Of a stretch of 64,000 nt of DNA, positions 1 to 62,895 are shown piece by piece. This DNA is from Pseudobdellovibrio exovorus JSS (GTDB taxonomy: Bacteria > Bdellovibrionota > Bdellovibrionia > Bdellovibrionales > Bdellovibrionaceae), in the NCBI RefSeq assembly GCF_000348725.1, contig NC_020813.1, forward strand, positions 2,171,058 to 2,235,057, written 5' to 3'. Below the pieces are notes generated by a model. That model had not been told where the DNA came from. It searched no databases and saw nothing but the letters and a program-made list of their open reading frames with translations. The stretch's first letter is position 1; every line of letters starts with the position of its first letter. The translations under genes were made by a program, and so were the position numbers.

Positions 1-309
1 TTGTGGTACGATCAGACTCGTATTGCTGCGATCTTGGATGAAAATAAAGAAACTAAGATTGTGTATCTTTATGGTCCCGAAATACAGCACGTACCAAGCT
101 ATGTCGTTAAGAATGGTGTCTCATATCGAATCTTACACGACCCAGGACTTGGTTCTATTCGTTATATCATCAATCCCTCTACTCGGGAAATCGTTCAAGA
201 GATAGAATATGATGAATACGGAAATATGATAAAAAACACGAACCCAGAATTTCAACCCTTAACTTTTGCTGGAGGTCTTTGGGACTCGGATACGAGGATA
301 AATAGATGA
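1..309 (+). CDS. RHS-repeat protein, 3' end only (truncated RHS core)
   Basis: The frame is open from the window edge, so the 5' part lies outside. The visible 102 residues contain YD-repeat style text (EYDEYGNMIKNTNPEF) followed by FAGGLWDSDT, which is the start of the conserved end of RHS cores (usually continued by an RFGxRDYDP-type segment). Here the frame stops four residues after DSDT, so the end of the core and any toxin tip are missing. The stop codon overlaps the start of the next gene (ATGA at 306-309), which couples translation. Residues 45-272 are repeated at DNA level at 1624-1851. RHS proteins are polymorphic toxin carriers; whether this one still works as a scaffold cannot be judged from the fragment. 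Confidence 0.7.
   Translation: MWYDQTRIAAILDENKETKIVYLYGPEIQHVPSYVVKNGVSYRILHDPGLGSIRYIINPSTREIVQEIEYDEYGNMIKNTNPEFQPLTFAGGLWDSDTRINR
45..272 (+). repeat. Direct repeat, RHS 3' end, copy 1
   Basis: About 228 nt that recur at 1624-1851 with roughly 17 mismatches over the best 212 nt (about 92% identity by hand alignment). Homology stops at the codons for FAG in the RHS core; the downstream sequences are unrelated. Confidence 0.85.
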
Positions 310-4594: not shown

Positions 4595-5539
4595 TTACCT
4601 TCTACGGCCACCAGGGGGACCGCCAAAGCTAATCCCACCACTAGAGGTATTTTTCTTCTCGGCCACGATGGCTTCGACAACGATATCTCCGGCATTTAAG
4701 CCAGACAGCACCTCTGTCTGTTTTCCATCGGTAATGCCAAGACGAATGGGACGATTTTCTGGCTCTTTCCCCGTCTTCACTAGAACATAGGGCCGTCCCG
4801 CTTCATATTTCACAAAGGCATTGGGAACAACAGTGATATCTTGCTTAGATTCTCCGATAAAGTTCACATTCGCTGTCATACCGCTTCGTAAGAAATCAAT
4901 TTCTTCCAGTGGCAACACATAGACAGTGTAAGTGGTGACGTTATTCACTGTCTTGGCTTCGTAGGCAATGTGACTCACCACCGCCTCTAGAGGTTTATTT
5001 AAGTAAGCATCTAAAACCACTTCGGCTTTTTGCTTCACAAAGATTTGCGCCAGATCCGTTTCATCCACCTGAGCTTGGATCGTCAGACGATCTGCCATCA
5101 CCAAAATAGCATCGGCAGTAGTAAAGGTCTGTCCTGGTTCAATACTGCGCAGAATAATCGTTCCTGCCAGCGGAGCAATAATCGGTGTGGGTTTATAGAT
5201 CTCTTCCCATTTGCGGACCTCCGCCTCACCTTGAGCGCGCGCGCCGTCTAATAGCACAGCACGCTCTGTTGAGCTGACCCATGCCAAGATTTCGCCTTTC
5301 TTAACTTTTTGGCCTTCGCGTACATTGATACTTTCGGCGCGGCCTGCTAGCGGAGACTTAATTTGCAAGCGGTTCTCGGGCTGTACTGTACCCGTGGCTA
5401 AAATTTTTAATGCGATATCGGATTTTTTGATTTCGGCTTCGCGATACTGCGTTGGTTTCGCTTTAAAAAAGAAAAACCACACGCCACCGGCGATCAGAAT
5501 GGCTAAAACAAGGGAAATAATAACATACTTCTTATTCAT
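4595..5539 (-). CDS. macA: MacA-type periplasmic adaptor (HlyD/RND membrane fusion protein)
   Basis: 314 residues from the ATG at 5539, which has GGAG six nt upstream; a longer frame exists but would bury the membrane anchor. Residues about 4-24 form an N-terminal transmembrane helix. They are followed by a lipoyl/barrel-sandwich region (RLQIKSPLAGRAESINVREGQKVKKGE), a very short hairpin, a beta-barrel and a membrane-proximal domain. The coiled-coil hairpin is clearly shorter than in enteric MacA, so docking to TolC may differ. The C-terminus is Gly/Arg-rich (SFGGPPGGRRR). It overlaps the tolC-like gene by 8 nt and precedes macB by 3 nt, so the three are one operon. Confidence 0.9.
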   Translation of the reverse strand: MNKKYVIISLVLAILIAGGVWFFFFKAKPTQYREAEIKKSDIALKILATGTVQPENRLQIKSPLAGRAESINVREGQKVKKGEILAWVSSTERAVLLDGARAQGEAEVRKWEEIYKPTPIIAPLAGTIILRSIEPGQTFTTADAILVMADRLTIQAQVDETDLAQIFVKQKAEVVLDAYLNKPLEAVVSHIAYEAKTVNNVTTYTVYVLPLEEIDFLRSGMTANVNFIGESKQDITVVPNAFVKYEAGRPYVLVKTGKEPENRPIRLGITDGKQTEVLSGLNAGDIVVEAIVAEKKNTSSGGISFGGPPGGRRR

Positions 5540-6779
5540 GTAAGACTCCAATACCCTGAGCTTGCTCCCACTGTGCTTGCTTGATGATACGATTGCGTTC
5601 GCTTGATAAATTTTCTTTTTGTCTGTTGATAAGATCGGTTTCAACAATGTCCCACTCTTCGAAATTGATAAAACCATTTTTATATTTATTACGCGCAACT
5701 TCAGCACGCATAATAGCGGCCTTATCGAAATTTCGGTCTATCTTTTCCTTTTGTAGCGCTTGCATATAGTCATAGTAAGACTTTTTGATCTCGCTTGAGA
5801 CTTTCAAAAATACATTACGCGCACTCAATCTATTACTTTCATAAGTCGACGAAGACGAGCGATAACTGGAATAGGTTCGCAATCCATCAAATAAAGGAAT
5901 CGACAAAGTCAGTCCCACAGACCACGAGTCTTTTTCTGGAAAAAACCTATTATCCGAATAACCATAGCTGCCTGATAAGTCCAGCTTCGGTAAAAAATCA
6001 GCCCGTGTAATTTTAAGGCTATGCAAAGACATCGTTTCATCGTACTGAGCTGTTAAAACATCAGGGTGACGATTCGCTATTTGTTCGAAGTCCACTGATT
6101 TAATGTCTTCATTCCCCCGTGGCACATTGCTGTCGACCGTGATCTCTTCAGATGTCGGAAGACCCAAAATACGTTTGAGGTTATCAAGGGCAAGATCCGA
6201 GCTATTTTCGGCGCTCATCACATCGTAACTCGCCATCTCAACATAAGACTCAGATAGTAAGAGGGAACCCTTATTTTCACGTCCCATGTTGTACTGTAGC
6301 TTTACATTCTCATAGTTTTCTTTACGACGTCTTAAGATGTCAGACGTCAGCCGTTTAAAATCCTGCATGTAATACACTTCAGCGTAGGCCTGCTTCAGTT
6401 CACTGCTTAAACGCGATAACGTCGAATCCAAGCTGGCCTTAGCTTGCTGAGTTTTTGTATTTGATAGATAATACGAGTTGATATCGGCAAACCCTGCGAA
6501 CAGGTTTTGGCTTACTGAAAGTTGAGCGCTATAGCCGTGAGTACTTGGGCTACCGATCACTTGTCCATGTGAAGCCCCCATAGAAGCGCTCACTCGTGGT
6601 AGAAACCCACTCATGCCTGCTGTCTGAGCTTCTTTGACTGACTCATAATTTTTTAATGCTGATTGGTATTCAAGACTATTTTGCTTCGCCATCTGAATGG
6701 CATCACTCCAATTGAGAGTGCGAGCCTCAAGCGTCATGGTCGCGATCAATACAGTTAAAGCGCTTACTAAAATCCTCAT
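5532..6779 (-). CDS. tolC: TolC-family outer-membrane efflux channel
   Basis: 415 residues with a signal peptide (cleavage near LEA-RT, residue 20). It shows the two-fold repeated long-helix/strand layout of outer membrane factors: helices rich in Q, S and A (QMAKQNSLEYQSALKNYESV), and two GLTLSIPLFDGLRTYSSYR / SVSQNLFAGFADINSYYLS type strand segments, one per repeat. It would trimerise in the outer membrane and form the exit duct of the MacA/MacB pump encoded next. First gene of the operon; no Shine-Dalgarno, but a promoter whose -10 ends 7 nt before the ATG (6787-6816). Confidence 0.9.
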   Translation of the reverse strand: MRILVSALTVLIATMTLEARTLNWSDAIQMAKQNSLEYQSALKNYESVKEAQTAGMSGFLPRVSASMGASHGQVIGSPSTHGYSAQLSVSQNLFAGFADINSYYLSNTKTQQAKASLDSTLSRLSSELKQAYAEVYYMQDFKRLTSDILRRRKENYENVKLQYNMGRENKGSLLLSESYVEMASYDVMSAENSSDLALDNLKRILGLPTSEEITVDSNVPRGNEDIKSVDFEQIANRHPDVLTAQYDETMSLHSLKITRADFLPKLDLSGSYGYSDNRFFPEKDSWSVGLTLSIPLFDGLRTYSSYRSSSSTYESNRLSARNVFLKVSSEIKKSYYDYMQALQKEKIDRNFDKAAIMRAEVARNKYKNGFINFEEWDIVETDLINRQKENLSSERNRIIKQAQWEQAQGIGVLHE

Positions 6780-6816
6780 GTTGATTAGTTTAGTGGGGGC
6801 CCGACTTAAATTTCAA
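6780..6816 (-). promoter_or_regulatory. Sigma70-type promoter of tolC-macA-macB, leaderless geometry
   Basis: On the minus strand TTGAAA (6816-6811), an 18-nt spacer, TAAACT (6792-6787), then 7 nt before the tolC ATG at 6779. Transcription would begin at or next to the A of the start codon. No Shine-Dalgarno lies in those 7 nt. Confidence 0.5.
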
Positions 6817-26971: not shown

Positions 26972-26978
26972 TTATAAT
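26951..26978 (+). promoter_or_regulatory. Promoter of the PilZ gene, leaderless geometry
   Basis: TTGCGG (26951-26956), 16-nt spacer, perfect TATAAT (26973-26978); the ATG follows after 9 nt with no Shine-Dalgarno. The -35 lies inside the 3' end of trmFO. Confidence 0.6.
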
Positions 26979-26987
26979 ATCTGAGAT

Positions 26988-32452: not shown

Positions 32453-32488
32453 GCTCTGATAGTAATCAAACTAGAGGTTTTTCGTCAG
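32453..32488 (-). promoter_or_regulatory. Promoter of glmU-glmS, leaderless geometry
   Basis: Minus strand: CTGACG (32488-32483), 18-nt spacer, TACTAT (32464-32459), then 6 nt to the ATG. The -35 is a moderate match. Coordinates may be off by one base. Confidence 0.4.
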
Positions 32489-32541
32489 TTGTTTTCTTTT
32501 TAAGTCTGGTCAAATTGTGACTTTAGCGGCACACTAAAAAC

Positions 32542-44258: not shown

Positions 44259-45102
44259 TCGCCATTAGATTTTGTGGACGCACCCGAGTGGCATCCAGAT
44301 TCATTTCTGGGCGAAAGGGTTCAAATTTAGCACTGACCATTCCATGCAACATCTTCGCTAGCTCTGATCGATCATCTTCTGCTTTTGGATACACCATCGG
44401 TAAAAATTCAATTTCACATGTGACCGAATCTAATTTCAACGACCGCCAAATAGCAGGTAAGAACGTTTCACTTCCATACCAACAAACAGAATCACGATGT
44501 TCAAATAGGACTGGTTGGTGATTGATTTGTCTGAAGTTAAAAACAAATGGACGAATTGGCTTTTCCGCCAATCCAGCCGCCATGATCAACGTTTTTTTAA
44601 ATGGCAAAACTTGTTCGCCATCAGAAGCCACCGACTCAGCATAAAGCACAACACGGAAGCCCTCTTTTAAAACATTCACAATGTCTTGAAGTTCATGTTG
44701 AATCGACATTCTGTTCTTACGATTGACATAGGCGCAGCCACCAAGTTCAGCAATTTGCCCTAAGACAGGAGTCTGCTTCATTTCTAATGACGTAATAAAA
44801 ACATTACTTCTTAAAGCACATAGACAAACGATATCAATAAAACCCATGTGATTTCCGACCAATAAAGCGGACTCATCTTCTGAAATATTTTCGCGGCAGA
44901 TTAGCTCCACATTGAATGCCTTGATAATTTTTTTGCAGGTCATGTGAGCTTTGTTCGTTAACTGACGTCGGCGCTCGACAGGGTTCGGTGTTCTTTTGTA
45001 AATAATGGCGGCCTTTGCAAAGAAGACCAGTACCACAAAGGCAAATCGCAACAGGCGAAAAGCCGCTCGAATATTAAGGTAAAAAGAATGAAACACCTGC
45101 AT
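44236..45102 (-). CDS. 1-acylglycerol-3-phosphate acyltransferase-like protein (PlsC family)
   Basis: 288 residues. An N-terminal membrane segment (about 12-32) then the catalytic HX4D box (LLVGNHMGFIDIV), followed by the glycerolipid block YVNRKN and VLYAESVASDG in place of the usual FPEGTRS, so the substrate pocket is atypical. Makes phosphatidic acid or acylates a related lipid. It is 4 nt after the sua5 stop, last gene of a five-gene operon. Confidence 0.85.
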   Translation of the reverse strand: MQVFHSFYLNIRAAFRLLRFAFVVLVFFAKAAIIYKRTPNPVERRRQLTNKAHMTCKKIIKAFNVELICRENISEDESALLVGNHMGFIDIVCLCALRSNVFITSLEMKQTPVLGQIAELGGCAYVNRKNRMSIQHELQDIVNVLKEGFRVVLYAESVASDGEQVLPFKKTLIMAAGLAEKPIRPFVFNFRQINHQPVLFEHRDSVCWYGSETFLPAIWRSLKLDSVTCEIEFLPMVYPKAEDDRSELAKMLHGMVSAKFEPFRPEMNLDATRVRPQNLMATTAKDVH

Positions 45103-45106
45103 GTAT

Positions 45107-46126
45107 CTAGTCTAAAATTAAAGAGGCGGCTTTGTACAGCCTATCAAAGACACTTTCCCACATTTCACCCTGATGATGGGGCATTTGAATGAAACAAAGG
45201 GCATCTGGCATGCGCTGGCTGGCTGCTCGCAACTGCGAATACAGCTCGCGCGCGGCCTGTGCAGGGTCGTCGGAAAGCTTAAGAAACTCAATCTTGCTTA
45301 TAGGCTGCTTGGGTTTAACAATTTTAACCCCTTCCACCTCGTCCGGTAACTCTTTTAACTTTTGATTCAAATGGGATGTCAAATCTGAAAGCTTCATGCG
45401 AGAGTTACGACAAACCACCAAAGGTACCTGTGGCATATAATGATGTTTCATATGACCAGGGGATTCTTTTTTATCCACTGATTCTACCCATTGATATGTC
45501 AAATCACTATCGGCTAAAGCTTGCTCGATTTGGGATTGTAGGATTGCACCCTTACGCAAGATAGAAAGTTCGTAGCGGGCGTCGATATTTTTTACCAAAA
45601 GCACTGTCGACTCGATACCAATCTGACTGGAATCCCCATCTAGAACAAAGACCTTATTTTGGAACTCATCGCGCACGTGCTGAGCTGCTGTCGGACTAGT
45701 TCGCCCAAATAGATTCGCACTCGGTGCCGCTAAAGGAACACCCACACGGCTGATCAAGCTCTGAGCCACTGGATGTGCTGGCCAACGTAATCCCACATTA
45801 GGAAGTCCCGATGTAATCAGATCCGATATCAACGGCGACTTCGGCATCACTAAAGTCAAAGGGCCGGGCCAAAATTTTTTCACTAACAAATCACACATAG
45901 CATGCCACTGTTGCACACAACTTTGCGCTTGTTGAACTGAGGACACATGTACAATTAAGGGATCAAAAAAAGGACGCTTTTTAACACTGAAGATTTTTTT
46001 TATGGCGACTTCAGAGTCAATACGAGCTGCCAGTCCATAAACAGTTTCTGTCGGCATAGCCACAACCTCATTCTTCAGAATAAGGTTAACAGCCTGATCT
46101 AATTGTTCTGACATCTCTTTTTTCAT
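45107..46126 (-). CDS. Threonylcarbamoyl-AMP synthase, Sua5 type
   Basis: 339 residues, so the two-domain Sua5 form and not the shorter TsaC. YrdC domain: MPTETVYGLAARIDSEVAIKKIFSVKKRP, GPLTLVMPKS, VGLRWPAHPVAQSLI, APSANLFGRTSPT. C-terminal Sua5 domain with the linker SPGHMKHHYMPQVPL that closes the active site. Makes the precursor for t6A37 in ANN-decoding tRNAs. Overlaps ybbP by 4 nt. Confidence 0.93.
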   Translation of the reverse strand: MKKEMSEQLDQAVNLILKNEVVAMPTETVYGLAARIDSEVAIKKIFSVKKRPFFDPLIVHVSSVQQAQSCVQQWHAMCDLLVKKFWPGPLTLVMPKSPLISDLITSGLPNVGLRWPAHPVAQSLISRVGVPLAAPSANLFGRTSPTAAQHVRDEFQNKVFVLDGDSSQIGIESTVLLVKNIDARYELSILRKGAILQSQIEQALADSDLTYQWVESVDKKESPGHMKHHYMPQVPLVVCRNSRMKLSDLTSHLNQKLKELPDEVEGVKIVKPKQPISKIEFLKLSDDPAQAARELYSQLRAASQRMPDALCFIQMPHHQGEMWESVFDRLYKAASLILD

Positions 46127-52206: not shown

Positions 52207-52236
52207 TTGAAAAATAATCACATTAAAACTTATACT
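52207..52236 (+). promoter_or_regulatory. Promoter of the HNH gene, leaderless geometry
   Basis: TTGAAA (52207-52212), 18-nt spacer, TATACT (52231-52236), then 7 nt to the ATG at 52244 (a second ATG follows immediately). The intervening TATATAT has no Shine-Dalgarno. Confidence 0.65.
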
Positions 52237-52243
52237 TATATAT

Positions 52244-52801
52244 ATGATGACGGCTGACGGTGTCCTCTCTATAAGCCTAAAAGCTCTGGTTCTAAATGCC
52301 AGCTACGAGCCCCTGCGAATCATCTCATGGCAAAAAGCGCTGCTGATGTGGTTCCAAGAAAAAGTAGAAATCTTAGAATATCACACGGCTATGGCTCGTT
52401 CTGTGACTAACTCTTTTCAATTGCCTAGCGTGCTCCGATTGAAAGCCTATGTGAAACCTAAAAAATTAGATGGCGTTCGTTTTTGCCGCGAAAATGTTTA
52501 CATTCGTGATAACTACACCTGTCAGTATTGCGCCGTGAAGTTCACTTACAAAGAGCTAACCATTGATCACGTATTACCGGCATCACAAGGTGGTCCGAAG
52601 ACATGGACCAATATTGTGACCGCCTGTCGTTGTTGCAATCAAACTAAGGCCAATCGCACCCCAGAAAAAGCTAAAATGCCTCTGCTGAAACAGCCCAAAG
52701 CGCCCCAATGGCTACCCGTCATTGACTTTCATTTGGATGAAGAAAAAGAGGCTAAGGCACCTCCGACATGGAAAGATTATTTGAGATTCAAAACAAATTA
52801 A
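52244..52801 (+). CDS. HNH endonuclease-family protein
   Basis: 185 residues. N-terminal region (LVLNASYEPLRIISWQKALLMWF) is typical of the bacterial HNH proteins often annotated as HNH endonuclease. The HNH zinc motif follows: YTCQYCAVKF, then ELTIDHVLPASQGGPKTWTNIVTACRCCNQTKANRTP, with catalytic DH and both CxxC pairs. Standalone nuclease of unknown role; could act in repair or mobile DNA. Followed by a GNAT gene 16-19 nt downstream. Confidence 0.9.
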   Translation: MMTADGVLSISLKALVLNASYEPLRIISWQKALLMWFQEKVEILEYHTAMARSVTNSFQLPSVLRLKAYVKPKKLDGVRFCRENVYIRDNYTCQYCAVKFTYKELTIDHVLPASQGGPKTWTNIVTACRCCNQTKANRTPEKAKMPLLKQPKAPQWLPVIDFHLDEEKEAKAPPTWKDYLRFKTN

Positions 52802-59855: not shown

Positions 59856-61628
59856 TTATTTTTGTTTAGCTCCCTCAGGTTGAGTTTGCGCTGGCATACG
59901 TGATGGCGTAGATCCATACAAAGGTGCGAACTCAATTCTTTGTCCTACAGATTTACCTTGAGCTTTAGTATTCCAATCTAAAGCTGCGGCAACCCGAAAA
60001 AACTGTTGTGCTTTATCTTGTATATTAGCAGCTGCATATACCTTAGCCAAGGCTCTTGCATAAAAAGCATCCTGTGGATTTTGATCGTATACATCTTCCA
60101 TCAAAGCCACAGCTTTGTCTGTGTGATTCTGCTGCAGCAAAAGCCACGCTAACATTGGTTTTAAATTTTTATTCTGAGACTTATATTCCAAAGCTTTTGT
60201 CAGCAAGTAGGTCGTATCTTCTATTTTTTTGCCATCTTGATACCAAAGCTCTGCTAATAGAGCGTACATTCCTGCACTTTCAGGATTAAGCTTTTCTACA
60301 GTGCGAATTTGCTGATTAAAATTATCAAACTGACCTAGCTTGTAATACGAATAGGCCGCGTTTAAACGCAGTTCTTCATTGTATGGAAATTCCTTTAGAC
60401 CTGTTTCTGCCACTTTTGCTGCTGTCACATATTTCTGCTCTTTCACTAAGAGTTCAGAGTAAGTGCGCGCAATCGACTCTTGATCTGGACGCAACTCATA
60501 GGCCTGCGCCATGATAGCTAACGCTTTTTCACTGTTATCTTTTCTAAGTTCTTCAAATGCTAAAGCCGATCTGGCATCGCCAAAGTATTCCGAAGAATAA
60601 GGAACTTTTTCAAAGAGCTTAAACGCCGATCTTCTGTTTTTCTGTTCAAGTAAAATTTGCGCTAAATGATATTGCGCCTCTGAAGACTCTGTATAATTTA
60701 AAATCTCGCGATAGTTTTTTTCTGCGTTTTTCTGATCGCCTTTAACGAAGTATGTCCCCGCTATGCGAAGATCTAACTTTAGGGGCTCTTCATCACCTTG
60801 ATTTTTAATTTTATTGTATTCGACTAAAGCGCGATCATAAAGACCCGCTTGATAGGCTCGATCCGCAATTTGCCATGAAATCTCGCGATCATAATCCTGT
60901 GTTTCGGCGTAACGACTTAGAGCCTCCGTCGCACGAATATAGCGATACTGACTAGCTGACCAATTTGCATAGGCCTGAGTGATCTGACGATCACGCGGGT
61001 TTGCACTGTAGGCTTTCTGAATAAACTCATCAAACTTATCTTGATTCTTTAGCTGTTGGAAAAGCTGTGCCTGCTCGAAAAATACTTGGGCCCTATTTTC
61101 TTGTGTAAGCTCGATATCTTCTAGCTCATCCAAAGCACCTTGATAGTTATTTTCAAATTTATAAATTTCAACTAAAGCCCATTTTGCAGGATCGTACTGA
61201 GGCTGTAAGTTAAGAATGTGCGCATAGACTTCACGGGCTTTCGAGTAAACCCGAGTTTCCACATAAAGTTCTCCAAGTCGACTCAGAGCTAATAAACTAT
61301 CTGGCTTTTGTTCTAAGACTTGGTTGTACTCAACCAACGCCAAATGTGTACGGGAACTATTTCGATACTCGTCGGCTAAGCCAATACGGGCCTCTAAAGA
61401 GCGAGGATTGTGGAGCAAAGCCAGTCGATAGTTTTCAATAGACTGAGCTGTGTTGCCTTCTTGCCCATAAGAAACCGCCAGTTGTCGGTAGTATTCGGAG
61501 CGGGACAAATCGTCCGTTGAAAAATCTGTACTTCGTGTGGCTACAGGCTTAACCGCAACTGTCTGTAGACTTGAACATCCGGCCAAATACGAACCCAATA
61601 AAATTAGAAATACGATTTTTGCTTTCAC
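59856..61628 (-). CDS. TPR-repeat lipoprotein
   Basis: 590 residues with a GTG start. Lipobox LAGC (Cys near 18) then SSLQTVAVKP. From about residue 45 to 560 it is a series of TPR units (SRSEYYRQLAVSYGQEGNTA, then PDSLLALSRLGELYVETRVY, and so on), giving about 14 repeats. Likely an outer-membrane-anchored scaffold in the periplasm, comparable in layout to gliding-motility or secretion TPR lipoproteins, but I cannot name an orthologue. Confidence 0.8.
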   Translation of the reverse strand: MKAKIVFLILLGSYLAGCSSLQTVAVKPVATRSTDFSTDDLSRSEYYRQLAVSYGQEGNTAQSIENYRLALLHNPRSLEARIGLADEYRNSSRTHLALVEYNQVLEQKPDSLLALSRLGELYVETRVYSKAREVYAHILNLQPQYDPAKWALVEIYKFENNYQGALDELEDIELTQENRAQVFFEQAQLFQQLKNQDKFDEFIQKAYSANPRDRQITQAYANWSASQYRYIRATEALSRYAETQDYDREISWQIADRAYQAGLYDRALVEYNKIKNQGDEEPLKLDLRIAGTYFVKGDQKNAEKNYREILNYTESSEAQYHLAQILLEQKNRRSAFKLFEKVPYSSEYFGDARSALAFEELRKDNSEKALAIMAQAYELRPDQESIARTYSELLVKEQKYVTAAKVAETGLKEFPYNEELRLNAAYSYYKLGQFDNFNQQIRTVEKLNPESAGMYALLAELWYQDGKKIEDTTYLLTKALEYKSQNKNLKPMLAWLLLQQNHTDKAVALMEDVYDQNPQDAFYARALAKVYAAANIQDKAQQFFRVAAALDWNTKAQGKSVGQRIEFAPLYGSTPSRMPAQTQPEGAKQK

Positions 61629-61635
61629 CTTGTTC

Positions 61636-61643
61636 TTATCGGA
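61636..61643 (-). promoter_or_regulatory. Possible sigma28-like -10 box before the TPR lipoprotein gene
   Basis: TCCGATAA on the minus strand resembles the FliA -10 GCCGATAA at 7 of 8 positions (all but the first) and ends 7 nt before the GTG start. The -35 region (TAAGGAAG, 10 nt further up) is only a partial match, so this stays tentative. Confidence 0.3.
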
Positions 61644-61668
61644 ATTTTGGGGCCTTCCTTAACTAGAC

Positions 61669-61697
61669 TGGACAAAGATACGGGTTCTTCGCATACT
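61669..61697 (+). promoter_or_regulatory. Promoter of the racemase-like gene, leaderless geometry
   Basis: TGGACA (61669-61674), 17-nt spacer, CATACT (61692-61697), then 7 nt to the ATG at 61705, with no Shine-Dalgarno. Confidence 0.55.
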
Positions 61698-61704
61698 GGC
61701 ATCT

Positions 61705-62895
61705 ATGAGTTCAGAATATCGTGCCCTATTAAAAAAGCTGAAACTGACTGGCCCGTTAGCCTTTGTGGATCTACACAAATTTGATCGCAATGCAAAAAAG
61801 ATGGCGGATCTGGTTCGCCCCTCTGGACTTCATATCCGCGTTGCAACGAAATCGCTACGTGTACCCGAGCTGATTCAACGAGTTCTTAACTCTGATCCTA
61901 TCTATCGTGGGCTTATGTGCTTCAGTGCTCAAGAGGCGTTATTTTTATCAGAGCAGGGTTTTAATGATTTTCTGATTGCCTATCCGACAGTCTGTCCACA
62001 GGATCTTTCGGCCCTTAAGAAAATTCACGATCAAGGCAAAGAGGTCTACCTTGTTGTCGATAGCATCGCACACTTAGAAGCTCTGTCCTCAATTTTTCAA
62101 AATAGCTCGCGGCCTTTCCGCGTACTTTTTGAAGTTGATCTTTCTTTAAGACTTGGACCTTTAGTTGTCGGTGTGCGCCGTAGTCCACTCAGAACTACAG
62201 AACAAGTTTTGGAACTGGTTCGCCATATTCAAAGCATTTCCTCTTTAAAGTTCAGTGGTTTTATGGCTTATGAAGCGCAAGTGGCCGGAGTCGGGGACCG
62301 CAACCCGTTCAAACCTTTACTCAGTAAGTTGCTCAAACCACTTCGCCATTTCTCGGCAAAGAAAATTGCGCAGAAACGTGAACAACTCAAGTCACGCATC
62401 CTAGCTGAGTTCCCACAAACAGAATTTCTGTTCAACGGAGGAGGCACAGGAAGTTTAAGTTTTAATCTTCCTGAAAATCAAACTCTGACAGAGCTTACTG
62501 CTGGCAGTGGTTTTTACTGTCCCCATCTTTTTGATTACTACAGCAATTTCAATCTAGAGGCGGCTGCCTTTTTTGCACTGCAAGTTGTGCGACAACCGGA
62601 ACCCCATTGGTTCACCTGCCTCGGCGGCGGATTCATCGCCTCGGGCGAGCCTAACTGGGACCGCATTCCCCGTCCTGAAGCGAATATGAAGCTTTCTGGC
62701 TTTGAAGCCGCAGGAGAAGTGCAAACACCTGTGTACAGCCGCACTGAAAATTTAGCCATTGGGGACTCTGTTATTTTTCGCCATGCTAAAGCCGGCGAAC
62801 TGATGGAGCGTTTTAACGATGTGGTGTTAATTCAAGATGGCAAAGTCACAGCCAATGCCAAAACCTATCGAGGGTTTGGACAGTGTTACTTCTAG
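61705..62895 (+). CDS. PLP-dependent alanine-racemase-fold enzyme (D-threonine aldolase/DSD1-like)
   Basis: 396 residues. N-terminal barrel with the PLP lysine motif VATKSLRVPELI (Lys near residue 49), preceded by FVDLHKFDRNAKKMADLV, as in D-threonine aldolases and D-serine dehydratases. The C-terminal domain has FTCLGGGFIASGEPNWDRIPRPE and a metal-type HAKAGELMERF (His and the following Glu). It therefore acts on a beta-hydroxy D-amino acid or similar; exact reaction unknown. Divergent from the TPR lipoprotein gene. Confidence 0.8.
   Translation: MSSEYRALLKKLKLTGPLAFVDLHKFDRNAKKMADLVRPSGLHIRVATKSLRVPELIQRVLNSDPIYRGLMCFSAQEALFLSEQGFNDFLIAYPTVCPQDLSALKKIHDQGKEVYLVVDSIAHLEALSSIFQNSSRPFRVLFEVDLSLRLGPLVVGVRRSPLRTTEQVLELVRHIQSISSLKFSGFMAYEAQVAGVGDRNPFKPLLSKLLKPLRHFSAKKIAQKREQLKSRILAEFPQTEFLFNGGGTGSLSFNLPENQTLTELTAGSGFYCPHLFDYYSNFNLEAAAFFALQVVRQPEPHWFTCLGGGFIASGEPNWDRIPRPEANMKLSGFEAAGEVQTPVYSRTENLAIGDSVIFRHAKAGELMERFNDVVLIQDGKVTANAKTYRGFGQCYF

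Follow-up and report, generated by a model that had tools for sequence, protein, structure and literature searches.

Promoter elements at the start codons of the HNH gene and of five other genes

The window (the whole 64,000-nt stretch of DNA analysed) corresponds to positions 2,171,058–2,235,057 on the single 2,657,893-bp contig of Pseudobdellovibrio exovorus JSS (~42% GC), an epibiotic predator. It includes a gene of the HNH endonuclease family with promoter elements lying directly upstream of its start codon:

52207..52212, + strand: -35 element TTGAAA of the HNH gene; TTGAAA is kept in several orthologues of the same and other genera
52231..52236, + strand: -10 element TATACT of the HNH gene, after an 18-nt spacer and 7 nt before the ATG; posterior 0.99
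52244..52801, + strand: HNH endonuclease-family gene (Pfam HNH), with a tandem ATGATG start

The first-pass annotation had described this arrangement as TTGAAA-18-TATACT ending 7 nt before the ATG, and measurement of the segment 52207–52249 returned exactly these values. From the preceding stop codon up to the conserved region of the protein, the reading frame contains no ATG, GTG or TTG other than the two adjacent ATGs (52244 and 52247), so that the start is forced to one of these two positions. A leaderless or near-leaderless HNH mRNA, as the sequence suggests, could start translation at either of them. The closest species (G035, locus L063) shares the tandem ATGATG (52244–52249).

A comparable geometry had been proposed for five other genes of the window:

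6787..6816, - strand: TTGAAA-18-TAAACT, 7 nt before ATG 6779 of the TolC/OEP gene (5532–6779); posterior 0.99
61669..61697, + strand: TGGACA-17-CATACT, 7 nt before ATG 61705 of an alanine-racemase-N-like gene; posterior 0.99
32459..32488, - strand: CTGACG-18-TACTAT, 6 nt before ATG 32452 of glmU; posterior 0.95
32507..32535, + strand: TGGTCA-17-CACACT, 6 nt before ATG 32542 of a HAD-family gene divergent from glmU; posterior 0.98
26973..26980, + strand: TATAAT at 9 nt and an overlapping TAATAT at 7 nt before ATG 26988 of the PilZ gene; posterior 0.91

The gene names agree with Pfam (HNH, OEP/TolC, Ala_racemase_N, GlmU-type, HAD, PilZ). The distances given earlier for tolC (7 nt), the racemase-like gene (7 nt), glmU (6 nt) and the HAD gene (6 nt) were all found again on re-measurement, and the absence of a Shine-Dalgarno (SD) sequence was borne out for the six genes, each with an SD posterior of 0.00 in the fitted model described below. 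For PilZ, the TATAAT proposed at 9 nt is present, but the overlapping TAATAT sits at 7 nt. This gene had also been taken as an operon head; it follows a GidA/TrmFO-type gene at a distance of only 16 nt and is therefore no clear operon head. All six genes thus fit the leaderless class, HNH being the cleanest case and PilZ, which fits least cleanly, the weakest.

An acyltransferase gene (start 45102, - strand) was also scored as leaderless. Its promoter-like stretch (45102–45140) runs into the 3′ end of the sua5-type gene that precedes it, and the TTGAC-17/18-TTAAAT-6..9-GTG arrangement at its start is kept in many genera. Since this conservation probably reflects the coding sequence of the sua5-type gene, although a dual role is conceivable, the acyltransferase gene was left uncounted.

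The alanine-racemase-N-like gene (61705–62895) had no match among 24 other genomes of the family and was possibly acquired by transfer.

A distance peak at operon heads across the genome

To go beyond the window, we sampled 1.264 Mb of the P. exovorus JSS genome in evenly spread stretches. Our own coding-potential caller, which takes the 5′-most compatible ATG as the start and whose start choice is approximate, returned 1164 genes, including 712 operon heads and 372 operon-internal genes. Three relatives, one from the same genus (G028), one from the genus Bdellovibrio (G034) and one from another family of the phylum (G069), were compared, with E. coli K-12 as the outside genome.

Among the 712 heads, a TANNNT hexamer occurred exactly 6 nt before the start in 54 cases against a background of 18.1 per position (P ~8e-12). 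When a -35 element was required in addition (at least 4 of 6 matches at 16–18 nt spacing), the counts at 6, 7, 8 and 9 nt were 22, 15, 9 and 5, respectively, compared to 3.6 expected. A genome-wide peak at 6–9 nt had been anticipated; on the 1.26-Mb sample its maximum stood at 6 nt, flanked by shoulders at 7 and 8 nt, while 9 nt was not significant (P 0.3). The peak at 6 nt was absent from operon-internal genes (8 vs 5.9 background, n=372), from internal ATGs and from E. coli K-12. In the relatives, the corresponding counts were 11 vs 5.3 (G028), 14 vs 3.3 (G034) and 17 vs 8.2 (G069).

One could argue that TATA-like hexamers fall near starts by chance in AT-rich upstream DNA and that the fitting ones were picked. 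Indeed, TANNNT has a background rate of ~2.5% per position, and some single cases are weak, in particular the CACACT and CATACT -10 boxes and the PilZ promoter at 9 nt. Nevertheless, the peak persisted once the window was removed (52 vs 17.6 per position, Poisson P ~2e-11), it is missing in the three control sets, and -35 and -10 elements are enriched jointly. Chance is thus scarcely credible as an explanation.

Two further features, neither of which was used in defining the peak, accompany it. A -35 element (at least 4 of 6) was found near 48% of the hexamers ending 5–8 nt before the start vs 18% elsewhere, and an SD sequence was present at 29% of the starts with such hexamers vs 66% elsewhere. 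These observations also bear on a second possibility, namely that the promoters are real but the start codons were wrongly assigned and lie further downstream, on ordinary leadered mRNAs. In its favour stand the approximate start choice of the caller, the Bdellovibrio HNH orthologues, in which a strong SD precedes a start located 5 codons downstream, and the mis-annotated starts near -10 motifs discussed for Deinococcus (PMC12340547). Wrong starts, however, would not produce a position-exact peak at 6 nt, the SD is depleted at these very start codons and the HNH gene offers no alternative start before its conserved part. We consider misplacement very unlikely.

Raw whole-genome counts of TATAATN6ATG were not decisive (22 vs 17 at N10). 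Because reading frame and codon use confound such counts, a distance of 6 being in frame and one of 10 not, we make no phylum-wide claim from the raw counts over 94 genomes.

Size of the leaderless class

To estimate how many genes are concerned, upstream regions were fitted with a three-component mixture (nothing, SD, or a promoter at the start codon) with flat distance priors; a two-component EM was abandoned after converging on the SD motif. The fit recovered a -10 TAaaaT, a -35 TTGAca, a spacer of 17/18 nt and distances of 6 (48%), 7 (19%) and 8 nt (13%). The likelihood gain was 237 nats, with 80 and 72 nats on held-out stretches.

Among heads, the share of the leaderless component was 0.277 and that of SD ~55%. 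The leaderless share was 0.349 for divergent heads and 0.19 for genes after gaps of at least 80 nt, and fell to 0.019 for overlapping internal genes. Controls gave 0.000 at 6421 internal in-frame ATGs, 0.025–0.033 in shifted upstream regions and 0.008 in E. coli K-12. Shuffling within columns, which preserves the positional base bias and is thus only partly a null, still yielded a component (gain 79–99 nats), so the 28% share is to be taken as an estimate whose upper side is uncertain; AT-rich background and non-SD genes may inflate it. Counted directly, the surplus of TANNNT at 6 nt sets a floor of ~5%. By the mixture fit, we estimate the class at about a quarter of head genes and a third of divergent heads. 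The division drawn earlier between heads and internal genes holds statistically (0.35 for divergent heads vs 0.02 for overlapping internal genes) but is not absolute, as about 55% of heads carry an SD.

Orthologues of HNH and glmU

A similar HNH promoter occurs across the family; four genera show the leaderless geometry, and Bdellovibrio and three more genera have an SD leader. A -10 box lies 6–7 nt before the start in every one of the six members sampled from the genus, and in three other genera represented by one member each. In Bdellovibrio and three further genera (loci L069, L071, L073–L081), the TTGAAA/TATAAT-like promoter is kept while an SD (often GAGGGGGG, or GGAGG), a leader and the start codon all lie downstream of it. 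On the HNH protein tree, two changes between the leaderless-geometry and SD states suffice. The picture for glmU is less uniform: the model scores it as leaderless in three species of the genus, P. exovorus JSS included, and as SD-led in most others. Two species of the genus carry CTGACT-17-TAAAAT or TAAATT at 6 nt. The geometry at orthologues is thus clear for HNH and partial for glmU within the genus.

Concordance of the leaderless class with the relative of the same genus (4/16 vs 7/34) was not significant in this small orthologue sample, and neither was that with the orthologues of G034 and G069. The class may turn over rapidly, or else the calls for individual genes are noisy, and we do not claim a general conservation of the geometry.

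Sigma28-type promoters

A promoter of another type was found in the window:

61637..61662, - strand: sigma28-type TTAAG-15-CCGATA, 8 nt before GTG 61628 of a TPR protein gene (59856–61628)

The TPR gene forms a divergent pair with the racemase-like gene (61628–61705), in which the sigma28-type promoter of the former and the sigma70-type promoter of the latter are packed into the 76 nt between the two starts. CCGATA is the attack-phase -10 element of Bdellovibrio (PMC3627812). In three genomes pooled, CCGATA-like boxes peaked 8 nt before the start (12 vs 1.9, P ~1e-6), a smaller peak than that of sigma70. The TPR-gene promoter is possibly a short- or no-leader attack-phase promoter.

A combined scenario can be drawn from these observations, in which orthologues in the family switch between leaderless and SD-led states as the start codon moves relative to a conserved promoter, as suggested for HNH, and in which attack-phase sigma28 promoters include a leaderless subclass. 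As a whole it is rather doubtful and is offered tentatively.

Leaderless initiation as the preferred reading

Leaderless mRNAs are translated through recognition of the 5′-AUG by a 70S route, without SD. In P. exovorus, a sizeable minority of operon heads would use sigma70-type promoters (TTGACA-like -35, 17–18 nt spacer, TAaaaT -10) with 6–8 nt between the end of the -10 box and the start codon. With transcription beginning ~7 nt after the -10, the first base of the mRNA would be the A of the AUG (6–7 nt) or lie 1–3 nt before it (8–9 nt). Such mRNAs would lack an SD and ribosomes would recognise the 5′-terminal AUG, while internal operon genes would mostly use SD sites. Where these transcripts begin and how they are translated is inferred here from DNA sequence.

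The shoulders at 7–8 nt would permit leaders of 1–2 nt, and an AT-rich upstream bias has been discussed as a possible S1 signal (PMC5397173). One may thus suppose that the mRNAs carry very short leaders (3–10 nt), or start from another upstream promoter, and are translated without SD through an AT-rich or S1-type signal. Against this, the 6-nt mode together with a -35 at 17–18 nt spacing is the signature of a promoter. To our knowledge, no S1 signal with such spacing is known. We regard very short leaders or another promoter as unlikely.

Taken together, the sharp head-specific peak, its link with a -35, the depletion of SD and the absence from E. coli support the earlier proposal that leaderless initiation is a regular mode in this lineage. 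The chance reading being rejected, the observation is confirmed, and leaderless-type promoter placement is very probably regular in the Bdellovibrio lineage. That start-codon recognition would differ between first and internal genes, as also proposed, follows by analogy from established knowledge of leaderless mRNAs.

Relation to known systems and significance

In its geometry the class matches leaderless mRNA, which bacteria are known to use and to which these data appear to add, with good support, a case from the Bdellovibrionota. According to Zheng 2011 (PMC3160421), leaderless genes with a TA-like -10 occur in 207 of 953 bacterial genomes, and in 8 of 33 delta-proteobacterial genomes with a mean of 15.8% (range 5.7–20.6%); the GeneMarkS-2 work, as cited in PMC9581028, predicted 21.6% of bacterial species to be leaderless users. 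The Zheng 2011 class shares with ours a -10 next to the start, the lack of SD, a minority status beside SD genes and a share of the same order. Unlike in that study, we separated heads from internal genes, found a clear -35, studied Bdellovibrionota directly and compared orthologues. Our literature search found no description of leaderless genes in Bdellovibrio; the main text of Zheng 2011 names no Bdellovibrio, though its supplement may list it.

In Deinococcus-Thermus (PMC12340547), TANNNT also lies ~6–7 bp before the ORF and gives leaderless mRNA, experimentally there and by sequence inference here. The share in Deinococcus radiodurans is higher, almost 1/3 of all ORFs, as opposed to a minority of heads with a TTGACA-like -35 here. 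Mycobacteria (PMC3898074, PMC4633059) likewise mix leaderless and SD genes in one genome, but these were mapped by RNA sequencing and ribosome profiling, while ours are predicted. The attack-phase map of Bdellovibrio bacteriovorus, of the same order (Karunker 2013, PMC3627812), gives a sigma28 consensus TTAAG-N16-CCGATA that recurs here. It mapped attack-phase starts only, and neither "leader" nor "leaderless" came up in a term search of it.

These results imply that gene-start annotation in the phylum should add a promoter model to the SD model, and a ribosome-binding site might be left out of expression vectors or reporters for Bdellovibrio-like predators. Antibiotics that block leadered but not leaderless initiation (PMC9581028) may affect these genes to unequal degrees. 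The HNH orthologues, in which the start is displaced relative to a retained promoter, provide a natural series for studying a change of initiation mode. If the tentative scenario of state switching and of a sigma28 subclass is true, leaderless initiation could help predators to choose which mRNAs to translate in their non-growing and growing phases.
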